DNA from: Anabaena subtropica FACHB-260
Lineage (GTDB): Bacteria > Cyanobacteriota > Cyanobacteriia > Cyanobacteriales > Nostocaceae
Direction of reading: 5' to 3'
NCBI RefSeq assembly: GCF_014697105.1
Contig: NZ_JACJRF010000034.1
Span: 1 to 58,285, forward strand
Length of the DNA stretch: 58,285 bases
Below are positions 55,260 to 58,285 of this stretch, in pieces; positions within the stretch are counted from its first letter, which is position 1; every line of letters begins with the position of its first letter. A program made the position numbers and the translations under genes. The notes beneath the pieces are model-generated. The model worked only from the letters and a program-made list of their open reading frames with translations. It was not told the origin of the DNA and did not search any database.

Positions 55260-55333
55260 GGACGTATAGCTCAGTTGGTTAGAGCGCTACGTTGACATCG
55301 TAGAGGTCACTGGTTCGAATCCAGTTACGTCCA
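55260..55333 (+). tRNA. tRNA-Val (anticodon GAC)
   Basis: A complete cloverleaf: acceptor GGACGTA pairs with TACGTCC (discriminator A at 55333), the D-arm has AGCTCAGTTGG, the anticodon loop is TTGACAT (anticodon GAC) between CTACG and CGTAG, and the T-arm has TTCGAAT between CTGG and CCAG. CCA is not encoded beyond the first bases. The gene is intact although a transposon end follows 8 bp downstream. Confidence 0.97.
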
Positions 55334-55336
55334 TTG

Positions 55337-55341
55337 AATGT
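55337..55341. other. Predicted 5-bp target duplication at the tRNA-Val attachment site
   Basis: Tn7-like elements duplicate 5 bp. If the element end is at 55342, the duplicated bases are AATGT. The second copy would lie beyond the far end, outside the window, so this is a prediction. Confidence 0.45.
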
Positions 55342-55470
55342 TGTACAGTGACTAATTATTTGTTTGTGATTTAAAGTTTGAGTTTGCCGCAACGGCAAAG
55401 CTATGCTTGAAAACAGTAACGGCAAAATCATGCCTGAAAAACTTTGAAAAAGATCAATGTGAATTATCAA
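55342..55470. repeat. Transposon end with candidate TnsB-binding repeats
   Basis: After the terminal TGTACAGTGAC, GTGA-containing AT-rich segments recur at about 55348, 55366 and 55459. A 23-bp imperfect direct repeat (AACGGCAAA...ATGC-TGAAAA) occurs at 55391-55413 and 55418-55440. Tn7-like ends normally hold several TnsB sites, and these are candidates. Which repeats TnsB binds cannot be told from one end. Confidence 0.5.
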
Positions 55471-55493
55471 CCATCTCTATTCGTCCTGAAAGT

Positions 55494-56870
55494 TCATAAG
55501 CTACTTAAAATAGATTGAACTGTTTTCTTATAGAATAGTCGAACCTTCTTATAACGAAAATAGCCGGGGTTACGAATCAGCTCACACACACGAGACTCAG
55601 TTGGATATTCTCCTGATTGATGAAGTGAGACAATAGCTTCTATAATTTCTTGACAACACTGCTCAATAGCAGCTAAGTGACACATACCCATATAATTGCG
55701 ACGTTTAACGACAATTTGATGGGATAATAAGGGAAAATGTCTTGAAATAACTCGTCTATTAATTTTTAACTGTTTGGCTATCTCTGCAATGGTTGGTAAT
55801 GGATCTCTTGCTTGAGATAAAATGCTGGTCAAGGTATTTTCAATATGATCCAAGTCCAGTATTTTGGGATATGAACGCATATTCTTAGAATATTTCATGT
55901 CAAACTTGAGATTTTGACAATGGGTTGTTGATAGATTGAAATCTTGTGTCAAGAACTGAGATAAAGATATTTGAAGACTATAACAGATTTGCAGTAAAGC
56001 AAATAAAGAGGGACGAGTTTTACCTGAATACCAACCCCAGAAAGTATTTTTAGGGATTTTGTGCATTGCAGCAAAAGCAGCTATATTGTCTTCACTAACT
56101 TTATGCACTACATGGGTGAAAGATTTTGGTATAAGCTCTTGAGTAAGTGCAGAAGATAACTGATTTGCATTGGTAAGAAATTCTCCCAAATTTTCGACTA
56201 CCCATCTCTCCTGAGTAACTACTGAATTTTTAGAATATCCTCCTAACCACTGAAAACATTGGCAACAATAGCCTAACGTGGATTTCCAGTTTAACCAAAG
56301 TAATTGACTATGACAATGAGGGCAATTTTGCACAAGAGTATGTTGATGTACTAAACAAATCTTGACATCATTGAGTGACCATAGTAATGGCTCATAAATA
56401 ATTTGTTTATTTTGTTTCCAGTGTTGGTAACATATTGGACACCAAGCTTTATGAGAACGTAATAAGCCTTTTGTAACTAAAATGTTTGAGAAGGGTATCA
56501 ATGTTAAAAACTCTAGCTGATTGTGCAAAGTTAATTTATTAAGAACCTCAACAAAATCAGTAGCCATTATCCCATATCCATTTAAGGCATGAGAACGGTT
56601 AAAAAATGGTTTTAATCCTCTACTATTAGAATTTTTAATAAAGGTTTGCTGTAAGAGTGGATTAACTATTCTTGATAGTAATGTATTGACAACAACTCCA
56701 TGAGAATGAGCTAACCGTGTCACATAGCTGGTTAAACTCTCAACCATAGGAGTCCCTATACCAATCGGTTCCAAATGATGTAAACGACTTCGCTCAAGCA
56801 TTGGAAATTTCTCTGGACTCCATAGCTCATTCTCAAAGTAGGGTTGAATTGGGATTATGTCAATGTCCAT
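55494..56870 (-). CDS. tnsD: TniQ/TnsD-family target-selection protein
   Basis: The 458-aa protein has an N-terminal TniQ domain (GTPMVESLTSYVTRLAHSHGV) and two zinc-finger-like clusters: C144/C147 with C172/H175, then C183/C186 with C202/C205. A middle helix-turn-helix is near 266-300 (KNTFWGWYSGKTRPSLFALLQ), and two C-terminal DNA-binding-like helices pairs are near 370-455. The length and extra C-terminal domains suit a site-specific TnsD more than a short Cascade-partner TniQ. It is read toward tRNA-Val, 160 bp away, the probable attachment site. The start ATG gives MDIDIIPIQPYF. Confidence 0.85.
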   Translation of the reverse strand: MDIDIIPIQPYFENELWSPEKFPMLERSRLHHLEPIGIGTPMVESLTSYVTRLAHSHGVVVNTLLSRIVNPLLQQTFIKNSNSRGLKPFFNRSHALNGYGIMATDFVEVLNKLTLHNQLEFLTLIPFSNILVTKGLLRSHKAWCPICYQHWKQNKQIIYEPLLWSLNDVKICLVHQHTLVQNCPHCHSQLLWLNWKSTLGYCCQCFQWLGGYSKNSVVTQERWVVENLGEFLTNANQLSSALTQELIPKSFTHVVHKVSEDNIAAFAAMHKIPKNTFWGWYSGKTRPSLFALLQICYSLQISLSQFLTQDFNLSTTHCQNLKFDMKYSKNMRSYPKILDLDHIENTLTSILSQARDPLPTIAEIAKQLKINRRVISRHFPLLSHQIVVKRRNYMGMCHLAAIEQCCQEIIEAIVSLHQSGEYPTESRVCELIRNPGYFRYKKVRLFYKKTVQSILSSL

Positions 56871-57023
56871 GAAGATAATTTTTTGTTAAATAACCTAAAC
56901 TTTTTAATAAAGATTATACTTTGATGACCTGAGCTTTCGGCTTAATTTACAATGTATTATTATAGTTAAATCATTGGTAATTCTTTCAAACTTTAGTATC
57001 AAATTTTCTAAAAATTCTTAACC
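56871..57023. promoter_or_regulatory. Divergent promoter region between tnsD and cas6
   Basis: The 153-bp AT-rich gap holds the promoters for both divergent genes. TATTATTATAG-like sequence near 56952-56962 and TTAATAAAG near 56910 could be -10 elements. I see no CRISPR repeat here. Confidence 0.45.
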
Positions 57024-57686
57024 GTGATAGCTACAAGTATAAACAGCGAAGATTACCTAGACCTAACCTTTAAACTTAGAGGCGCACCGATTCCTCTTGA
57101 CAACGGTTATATTACCTATGCTGCTTTATCCCGTACTTGTCCTCCACTACATGAACTAAAAAATATTGGTATTCATCCAATTGCTGGAATACCAACAAGG
57201 AACAATTTGCTTGAACTCACTGCTCAATCTCGTCTAAAAATTCGGATTCATCATCAACAAATTCCTTTAATTTATCCTTATTTAGCGGGTCAAGCTTTTC
57301 ATATAGGTCAAAATTCTTATCAACTAGATATTCCCGACTACAAACCGTTAATTTCTTCAGAAAGTGTCTATTCCAGATTAGTGATAATTAAAGGGTTTCA
57401 AGACACTACTAACTTTATTGAAGCTGTTCAACGCCAACTGGATAATATAGGAATACAAGGGAAAATTGAACTTCTTACCCGACAAGATGGAACACCTCAA
57501 AAAAGACAATTAACCATCAATAAAGAAGGGAAACAGTTTGAAATTAGAGGATTTGGCGTAAAAATCAGCGAACTCAACCCAGAAGATTCCTTAACTTTGC
57601 AAGAACAGGGAATTGGCGGGAAACGAAAGATGATGTGTGGAATATTTGTCCCAGCAACTCGCAGCAAGGAAGAAGAGGAAACCTAA
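57024..57686 (+). CDS. cas6: Cas6 (Cmx6/type I-B MYXAN-like) pre-crRNA endoribonuclease
   Basis: The 220-aa protein processes the CRISPR transcript into crRNAs. The pattern LDLTFKLRGAPIPLDNGY, then AALSRTCPPLHELKNIGIHPIAG, LPLIYPYLAGQAFHIG-like LAGQAFHIG, YSRLVIIKG, and the C-terminal glycine-rich loop QGIGGKRKMMCGIF match the Cmx6 branch. H43 or H51 is the candidate catalytic His. It starts at GTG 57024. cas8 begins 2 bp after its stop, so the two form an operon. Confidence 0.88.
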   Translation: MIATSINSEDYLDLTFKLRGAPIPLDNGYITYAALSRTCPPLHELKNIGIHPIAGIPTRNNLLELTAQSRLKIRIHHQQIPLIYPYLAGQAFHIGQNSYQLDIPDYKPLISSESVYSRLVIIKGFQDTTNFIEAVQRQLDNIGIQGKIELLTRQDGTPQKRQLTINKEGKQFEIRGFGVKISELNPEDSLTLQEQGIGGKRKMMCGIFVPATRSKEEEET

Positions 57687-57688
57687 TC

Positions 57689-58189
57689 ATGGTTGCTACC
57701 CAACCCAAAATTTCCCTATCTCTCGATGCTGCGGATACGACAATAATGCACCGCGTGGGAATAACGGGACTTTACATGACTTTAAAGCGATTAGAAAAGC
57801 AATATCCCTCATCTCATCAACGGGCAGGGCATATATCATGGTTTTTGACTGCTGATACTATTGAATTATTCTGGCAAGGAAGTGATTTCGTCGCCCTATC
57901 TTGGTTAATTAAGGAGTCTTTTCAACTAGATGATACAGGTTTAATTCATTTAGCAGGATTAGACAATAATGCAATAGATTTAACTCAGAAAATCTACATT
58001 CATGAGGGAATGTGTGCCGTTTTCTTACGTCTTAATAAATTTTACCAAACAGGAAAGCTAGTTAACACTGAACTAACGGTTGAAGAAAAGAAAGTCGAGT
58101 ATCAATATAAATCCTTAACTTGGTACGCACATCAAACCTTTGCAGAGAAGTTATGTGATACAGATACCGAACAACTCATACCAGTTTAA
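57689..58189 (+). pseudogene. cas8: N-terminal part of cas8 (Cmx8-like), truncated
   Basis: Starting at ATG 57689 the product is 166 aa: MVATQPKISLSLDAADTTIM, then HRVGITGLYMTLKRLEKQYP, a pattern like the start of Cmx8 proteins, which are about 500-600 aa. It stops after LCDTDTEQLIPV, and a transposase-like gene follows within 50 bp. The missing part includes the regions that in Cascade recognise the PAM and hold the small subunit. I judge it disrupted by insertion; the 3' remainder should lie beyond the insertion. Confidence 0.75.
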
Positions 58190-58239
58190 TATGAAGGTGC
58201 ATATAATAGAGGAAACAAACTCGATAAATTAAAATAACC

Positions 58240-58285
58240 ATGAGCCGCACTTTTAAGATTGAAATCGCAGAGAGCGAAGAAGAAC
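58240..58285 (+). CDS. Start of an IS630-like transposase (partial, runs off the window)
   Basis: ATG 58240 begins MSRTFKIEIAESEEE, the opening of helix-turn-helix N-terminal proteins of IS630-family elements in cyanobacteria. Only 15 codons are visible. The insertion boundary should lie between about 58175 and 58230; the IS630 family targets TA dinucleotides, and several occur there. I cannot fix the exact end. Confidence 0.55.
   Translation, partial: MSRTFKIEIAESEEE

Follow-up and report, generated by a model that had tools for sequence, protein, structure and literature searches.

The right-hand end of contig C33 of Anabaena subtropica FACHB-260 carries one arm of a type I-B2 CRISPR-associated transposon (CAST), which appears to be nested within the end of a second transposon, a type V-K (Cas12k) CAST, at the same tRNA-Val(GAC) gene. 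The window analysed is the entire contig (58,285 bases), on which the right-hand continuation of the element has no DNA, and the genome (G000) is a 5.81-Mb assembly of 104 contigs; in the following, G designates a genome, L an extracted locus and C a contig, and elements like the C33 copy are called window-type. We consider it about 90% probable that a V-K CAST inserted first and that the I-B2 CAST followed at the same tRNA gene. This reading is built on the anatomy of C33, on the nesting with its duplications in genome G130 and on a nearly constant distance between the tRNA and the element tip, each of them demonstrated at the level of sequence.

A preliminary description of this DNA had reported a type I-B-like CAST at an intact tRNA-Val(GAC) gene, with the sequence TGTACAGTGAC eight bases further on as the transposon end, a tnsD gene facing the tRNA, and cas6 and cas8 on the opposite strand. 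All of these components are present. The tRNA gene (55260-55333, plus strand), which serves as attachment gene for both transposon types, was identified as intact by ARAGORN, and TGTACAGTGAC (55342-55352) follows after eight bases as its sole exact copy in the whole assembly. What stood of the proposal is an I-B2 arm with a homing TnsD; TGTACAGTGAC as its end and a whole element did not. TGTACAGTGAC opens a 23-nt piece, TGTACAGTGACTAATTATTTGTT (55342-55364), that matches the consensus of eight clean V-K ends and lies as a separate piece between the tRNA and the repeats common to window-type elements. The tRNA-side end of the I-B2 element, delimited by comparing five window-type loci and the far ends, consists of the tip TGTGATTTAAAGTTTGA-TTTGCCG and the following repeats (55365-55441), so that its tip TGTGATTTAAAG at 55365 is located 31 bases past the tRNA.

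The genes of the arm were compared with those of PmcCAST (Tn7744, type I-B2, from the Peltigera membranacea cyanobiont 210A). The tnsD gene (55494-56870, minus strand) is open throughout, reads towards the tRNA and encodes a 458-aa member of the TniQ family, recognised by Pfam (TniQ), by PADLOC (TniQ_IB, 454.5 bits) and by its match to PmcTnsD (8v32_J, 404.5 bits). The equally open cas6 (57024-57686, plus strand) scored 349 bits with the PADLOC model Cas6b2 and 456 bits with the PmcCAST Cas6 (8fcj_B). It is followed by the 5′ part of cas8 (57689-58178, plus strand), about 163 of some 530 codons, where within 166 open codons residues 2-163 align with residues 11-172 of the 534-residue PmcCAST Cas8 (310 bits). 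From 58179 to 58285 (plus strand) cas8 is interrupted by the end of a multicopy insertion sequence (IS; TACCAGTTTAATATGAAGG...) with a possible transposase start at 58240, and the contig ends inside it.

The assignment of TGTACAGTGAC to a V-K CAST rests on sequence comparison. The 23-nt remnant is identical to the V-K consensus at 22 of 23 positions and, beyond the 11 bases by which the consensus ends had been selected, at 11 of 12; the next best site in the window reached 16 of 23. The eight ends forming the consensus lie beside tRNA-Val(GAC) and belong to a set of 30 V-K-tip loci (L094-L123), which further comprises nine interrupted ends (L111 and L118 among them), seven loci that are unclear past the tip and six with another tip. 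In all eight, V-K sequence including a second V-K repeat follows the tip, and no tnsD match was found within 1.7 kb after their tRNA. Across 217 genomes of the same family, to judge from the named relatives L017 and L018 the Nostocaceae, a TGTACANTNAC tip lies within 14 bases of tRNA-Val(GAC) in 56. A TGTACAGTGAC-type tip is therefore found at the same place without the element, contrary to what the preliminary description had expected of a CAST end. The far ends tell the same: they start with TGTAATTTAAAG in the window-type elements of G130, G205 and G138 and with TGTCATTTTAAG on contig C81 of G000, in no case with an inverted TGTACAGTGAC. The motif AATGT, proposed to flank both ends, was not found at a second end, since the assembly contains no second exact TGTACAGTGAC. 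Another V-K end of G000 itself, beside tRNA-Thr(CGT) at the end of C10 (L128:17323-17685; TGTACGGTGACTAATTATTTGTCGTCGG...), is identical to the consensus at 31 of 32 positions and is cut by the same IS as cas8.

Several V-K elements at tRNA-Val(GAC) carry a putative anchor guide. In L094, L097, L121 and L123 (4/30), GGGAGGGTTGAAAG is followed inside the element by AGAGCGCTACGTTGACAT, which corresponds over 18 nt to positions 22-39 of tRNA-Val; a 15- or 17-nt match to a different part of the tRNA is present in two other loci, and for the remaining 24 no tRNA match of at least 14 nt was present in the stretch examined. These anchors have the protospacer adjacent motif (PAM) GTT and a distance of 57-61 nt to the tip. 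In the window, a GTT PAM (55278-55280) and the 18-nt protospacer AGAGCGCTACGTTGACAT together occupy 55278-55298 on the plus strand, and the V-K tip lies 61 nt from the protospacer start. V-K anchor spacers are described in passages of a published account (PMC9938897) as usually 17 nt long, with a GTN PAM and a spacing of 46-82 nt. By analogy with V-K CASTs in the literature, the element at tRNA-Val would have been directed by such a guide. The 18-nt tRNA-Val guide is also carried by G130; its guide region together with the guide yielded no match in G000, a search that a lone 18-nt guide could escape. Neither cas12k nor a V-K tniQ is located on C33, and the cas12k of G000 belongs to a V-K CAST at mutS.

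The nested arrangement is complete in G130. Its I-B2 element comprises 23,221 bases and is flanked by ATTTG on both sides. Starting from the tRNA, the order is tRNA, 10 bases, a 21-nt V-K tip, the I-B2 tip, tnsD, cas6-8-7-5, cargo, tniQ, tnsC, tnsAB and the far I-B2 tip, beyond which the V-K end resumes and contains the tRNA-Val guide, followed by a cas12k of reduced length, the V-K tniQ, tnsC and tnsB and the far V-K tip. Joining the two flanks of the I-B2 element restores a V-K end: its alignment with the corresponding end of L094 runs through the joint and shows 89% identity over 419 nt; six other V-K ends align to the joined flanks over 45-116 nt. A 6-bp direct repeat, GAATCC, lies outside both V-K tips. 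The V-K genes were located with G130's own sequences as queries, which served for the positions only, and were assigned to their families by the PADLOC V-K models, with 1030 bits for TnsB, 470 for TnsC, 290 for TniQ and 723 for the 438-aa Cas12k. A 162-aa gene of G130 whose position had suggested CvkR was not confirmed as such by PADLOC.

Eight elements were searched for duplications by script and by eye. Besides ATTTG in G130, ATTTA was found on both sides of the element of G019. The far end was not identified in G107, G159 and G210. The converse of the nested state was seen in G209, which carries a V-K-type tip at tRNA-Val without an I-B2 element and has neighbouring sequence on both sides similar to that of G205. 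Matches for cas6, cas8, cas7 and cas5, TnsAB and TnsC, and a homing TnsD plus a small TniQ are all present in G205, G130 and G138. CRISPR repeats lie beside cas5, two in G205 and four in L017, the locus of G138 (Nostoc NMS9). As the cas7 of L017 (6658-7626) is split into open reading frames (ORFs) of 207 and 114 aa, the Nostoc NMS9 element may be broken too. In a Cyanocohniella copy (L018, start of G037:C149), the tnsD match begins only at residue 23, near the contig start, and contains one TGA.

For the distance from the tRNA, 15 distinct loci in which both tips occur were analysed; a tnsD match is present in 11 and absent in L099, L108, L116 and L131. Offsets past the tRNA were 1-12 bases for the V-K tip and 27-32 bases (standard deviation 1.4) for the element tip, which was searched for at 20-47; the remnants measured 19-31 nt. 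The V-K offset correlates with the remnant length at −0.90 and with the element tip offset at −0.05. The 31 bases of the window compare with 31-32 in four window-type relatives. At other tRNAs (Val-TAC, Val-CAC and Ala) the element tip stands at about the same distance, and inspection by eye of 13 of their 14 flanks (L047 left out) gave a clear V-K-like tip in L045 and a doubtful one in L050. In the order-wide search of 388 genomes, restricted to 27-37 bases past tRNA-Val(GAC), 10 genomes showed an element-type tip, all at 31-33; six of them have a V-K tip (degenerate in two) and four no V-K sequence. This near-constancy both with and without V-K DNA suggests that the element measures from the tRNA and that the V-K tip is incidental, in line with a TnsD which, bound to the tRNA, would set the insertion distance. 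In addition, remnants of 23, 23, 21 and 25 nt were found in the window, G138, G130 and G037, respectively, whose elements are nearly identical; this argues for several separate nestings rather than a single inherited one.

Short insertions with element-type tips were also observed 27-31 bases past tRNA-Val(GAC) in L099, L100, L108, L116, L131 and L133, several of them near-palindromic (TGTGACTTTACCCATAACTTTGCCGC...). Five of the six are located inside V-K tips, and the five that were tested have no nearby tnsD match. It is possible that they represent mini-elements moved by TnsABCD.

Taken in order, a V-K CAST with a short anchor crRNA to tRNA-Val positions 22-39 would have inserted close behind the tRNA, at a distance of a few bases. 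As the tRNA stays intact in such an insertion, the I-B2 TnsD could still have bound it and directed the I-B2 element to its fixed distance of about 31 bases, a point by then located 23 nt within the V-K end. A later IS and loss of the middle would then have produced the present order tRNA, V-K tip, I-B2 end, tnsD, cas6, truncated cas8 and IS, probably continued on C81 by a truncated tnsAB and the far I-B2 end. For G000 this order of events is deduced from the remnant and from relatives.

Three other explanations were weighed. That TGTACAGTGAC is nevertheless the end of the I-B CAST itself would fit the frequent presence of a TGTACA tip between tRNA and element at tnsD loci beside tRNA-Val(GAC) (10 of 12, with TGTACAGTGAC itself in 8 of 12), but TGTACAGTGAC also occurs at this tRNA beside V-K ends without a tnsD match and is absent from the far I-B2 ends. 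Moreover, it was not seen as such in the flanks inspected at other tRNAs nor in four of the ten order-wide matches, and the duplications of G130 and G019 sit inside it, at the TGTGA tip; we regard this explanation as the least credible of all. A slightly better, still very slim chance is left to a compound end, in which the I-B2 element has gained a V-K tip outside its own and both travel as a unit. By eye, a V-K-like tip lies between tRNA and element in all 12 tnsD loci at tRNA-Val(GAC), degenerate in two (L026 and L035), just as such a unit would predict. Against it, the remnant length varies from 19 to 31 nt and compensates the V-K offset, two types of V-K tip (TGTACAGTGAC and TGTACATTCAC) occur, the remainder of the V-K end is found at the far side in G130, and element tips without a V-K tip exist, one of them with a tnsD match.

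In the reverse order, the I-B2 element would have preceded a V-K CAST that entered the space between tRNA and I-B2 element and afterwards lost its body; this would account for the failure to recognise V-K sequence on the far side in G138, G205 and G000. It predicts two V-K tips before the I-B2 tip and a longer distance, yet all 15 loci show a single V-K tip, directly followed by the element tip, and a preserved distance; for G130, which has the opposite order, it is refuted, and for the rest we judge it about as improbable as a compound end.

Several observations nevertheless weigh against the proposed order of V-K CAST first and I-B2 CAST second. No duplication was found in G138, G205 and G147, and the far flank of the former two lacks recognisable V-K sequence, as does that of G000: on C81 it holds a small palindrome together with a gene whose product is an orange-carotenoid N-domain protein. 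The duplication of G000 is imperfect: TTTGT is present on both sides, on the near side accompanied by a further T, so that the register is off by one T. Given the lack of clean duplications and of a V-K far flank, a later loss on the far side must be assumed for G000, G138 and G205, and for the G000 copy the nested reading is based on the 23-nt remnant and the relatives. The V-K-like tips in all 12 tnsD loci at Val-GAC were counted in a sample that is not random, made up of the 30 loci that best matched a single tnsD (12 at Val-GAC, four at Val-TAC, two at Val-CAC, eight at Ala and four without a tRNA found). The seven V-K-tip loci that are unclear past the tip are ambiguous. Of the four order-wide loci lacking a V-K tip, a nearby tnsD match was found in G403 alone; another of them, G202, is a short palindrome.

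The C33 copy is a wreck, with cas8 cut and a stub of tnsAB on another contig. The IS end within cas8 recurs at nine other sites of the genome, of which eight could be identified as contig ends, and a partial inverted IS match is present at eight further sites including C81. Seven of these eight show one common sequence at the contig end; the eighth, on C29, lies deeper inside its contig and is not comparable. On C81, beside the IS, we found the start of a TnsA-TnsB fusion (a 171-codon ORF) and the I-B2-type far end. The stub is 94% identical to the TnsAB of G205 over about 157 residues, and its TnsA-like match falls under the Pfam cut-off. The simplest reading would be that a single IS has taken the place of the middle and links C33 with C81. 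The preliminary description had proposed to look further right for tns genes, cas7, cas5 and a second end; no cas7, cas5 or small tniQ of this element was found in the assembly. Searching the assembly with the DNA of L017:1-11700, which covers tnsD to cas5 plus cargo and excludes tniQ, tnsC and tnsAB, gave five matches, four of them short, with 40 of 82 candidates scored, and only C33:55212-58181 matched as CAST DNA. A DevR/Cas7 profile search gave no match, a weak result as the model also missed the 207-aa part of the L017 Cas7. The small I-B2 tniQ is not among the three TniQ matches of the genome (C33, C24 and C38). The only search for tnsC, with the Tn7_TnsC_Int profile, yielded no match anywhere, controls included, and thus says nothing. 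No CRISPR array was seen in the C33 arm.

Comparison of the window-type elements with Pmc-type elements, represented by G107, G019 and G147 with PmcCAST's own DNA outside the comparison, revealed two transposase cores combined with one guidance module. Against the PmcCAST TnsAB (9bw1_M), the TnsAB of G107 scored 1883 bits and that of G205 769 bits. Between G107 and G205, identities amount to 43.6% for TnsAB, 36% for TnsC and 41% for TnsD, as opposed to 91% for TniQ, 89% for Cas8, 88% for Cas6, 89% for Cas7 and 93% for Cas5. DNA comparison of the two gave, besides the tRNA region, shared stretches in tniQ (93% over 1.0 kb), in the block of cas genes (91% over 4.1 kb) and in a 172-base part of window-type tnsD (84%). 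Some other element pairs have cargo in common as well, most of all those with G147. A fragment of window-type tnsD (63 to 69 of 458 residues) is located just beyond cas6 in G107, G019 and G147, in G107 with its frame still open and the remainder of the gene gone. This fossil suggests that Pmc-type elements received the module from the window type. By their TnsAB, window-type elements fall outside the PmcCAST core; the grouping into types in the review literature goes by CRISPR co-option and not by core. A review (PMC11406308) already notes in a passage that TniQ partners have been exchanged in this branch, so that the principle is known, and the literature passages seen contain no description of a module shared between window-type and Pmc-type elements.

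PmcCAST is close to the window-type elements in its guidance proteins, with 675 bits between the TniQ of G205 and 8fcu_P in addition to the scores of the window Cas6 and Cas8 N-terminal part, and, according to passages of PMC10293859 and PMC12719977, its homing TnsD acts at a tRNA-Val gene. It differs in that the window TnsD reaches only 404.5 bits with PmcTnsD and that the window-type core belongs to another lineage; likewise, tnsD lies beside cas6 and tnsAB at the far end in window-type elements, an order from which the Pmc-type G107 and G019 differ. V-K CASTs of the ShCAST kind resemble the locus in the tip, the tRNA-side end, the truncated repeat with a short anchor spacer, the GTN PAM and the 57-61 nt spacing; the window differs in that just 23 nt of such an element were recognised. 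CyCAST and McCAST (type I-D) have in common with window-type elements the TnsAB fusion and a tRNA-targeting TnsD (as stated in part of PMC11406308) and differ in the Cascade type. CyCAST, which uses tRNA-Leu, homes 30-33 nt past the tRNA according to a passage of PMC10293859.

Further transposons were observed in the same genome. C30 (L163:4669-7535) carries a V-K CAST with a full-length Cas12k, a three-repeat CRISPR array and a tip beside mutS, and C38 (L015:10097-13455) carries V-K tnsB, tnsC and tniQ with a tip like that of C30 beside rph; the two contigs are probably parts of one V-K element. The anchor spacer of this element, 17 nt long, corresponds to sequence in the 3′ part of mutS (GTC PAM, 58 nt to the tip), so that the attachment site is a protein gene and not a tRNA. 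The V-K genes of C38 were considered as the body of the tRNA-Val remnant and rejected, their tip TGTACATTAAC lying beside rph and being of the same kind as that on C30 with its mutS guide. C24 (L014:2644-11299) contains Tn7-like tnsAB-tnsC-tnsD genes of the PmcCAST lineage (TnsAB 75.6% and TnsC 89.5% identical to G107); no cas gene was recognised there and no tRNA was found in the 20 kb examined. Upstream of these genes lie a DEAD-box helicase gene and a 493-aa gene without a Pfam match. C24 was rejected as the missing half of the C33 element, as its TnsAB is 44.7% identical to that of G205 versus the 75.6% to G107. On C33 itself, a histidine kinase gene (53351-55195) stops 64 bases before the tRNA. 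The upstream ORFs differ in 12 other genomes of the genus, at least eight of which have a recurrent gene (MYRLN.RAWK...) there, and the neighbourhood upstream of the tRNA seems to be rearranged in the window genome.

The CAST and its tRNA-Val site are of a known kind; what may be new is the nesting and the existence of a second core that uses the same guidance module. Neither was noticed in the parts of the literature seen, which does not permit calling them unpublished. A survey in mBio from 2021 (PMC8649781) states in part of its text that I-B2 ends could not be predicted automatically, and nested V-K tips may be one reason. The correction of the I-B2 end by 23 bases matters for building a donor from the element. 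The finding that one TniQ-Cascade is combined with cores of 36-44% identity (TnsC, TnsAB) offers a natural test of which TniQ-TnsC contacts are essential, and this bears on moving CRISPR guidance to another transposase. The near-constant tRNA distance with or without foreign DNA speaks for an insertion point determined from the tRNA side, and the locus is a natural record of a protein-guided and an RNA-guided system on one attachment gene. As a tentative view, to which we would give somewhat less than even odds, TnsD-homing CASTs at tRNA-Val(GAC) might be hyperparasites that land repeatedly in the tips of resident V-K CASTs, separating the terminal repeat from the remainder of the V-K end and thereby stranding the resident while staying mobile themselves, and PmcCAST might be a derived chimera that received its TniQ and Cascade from a window-type element, with the tnsD fossil beside cas6 as the trace.

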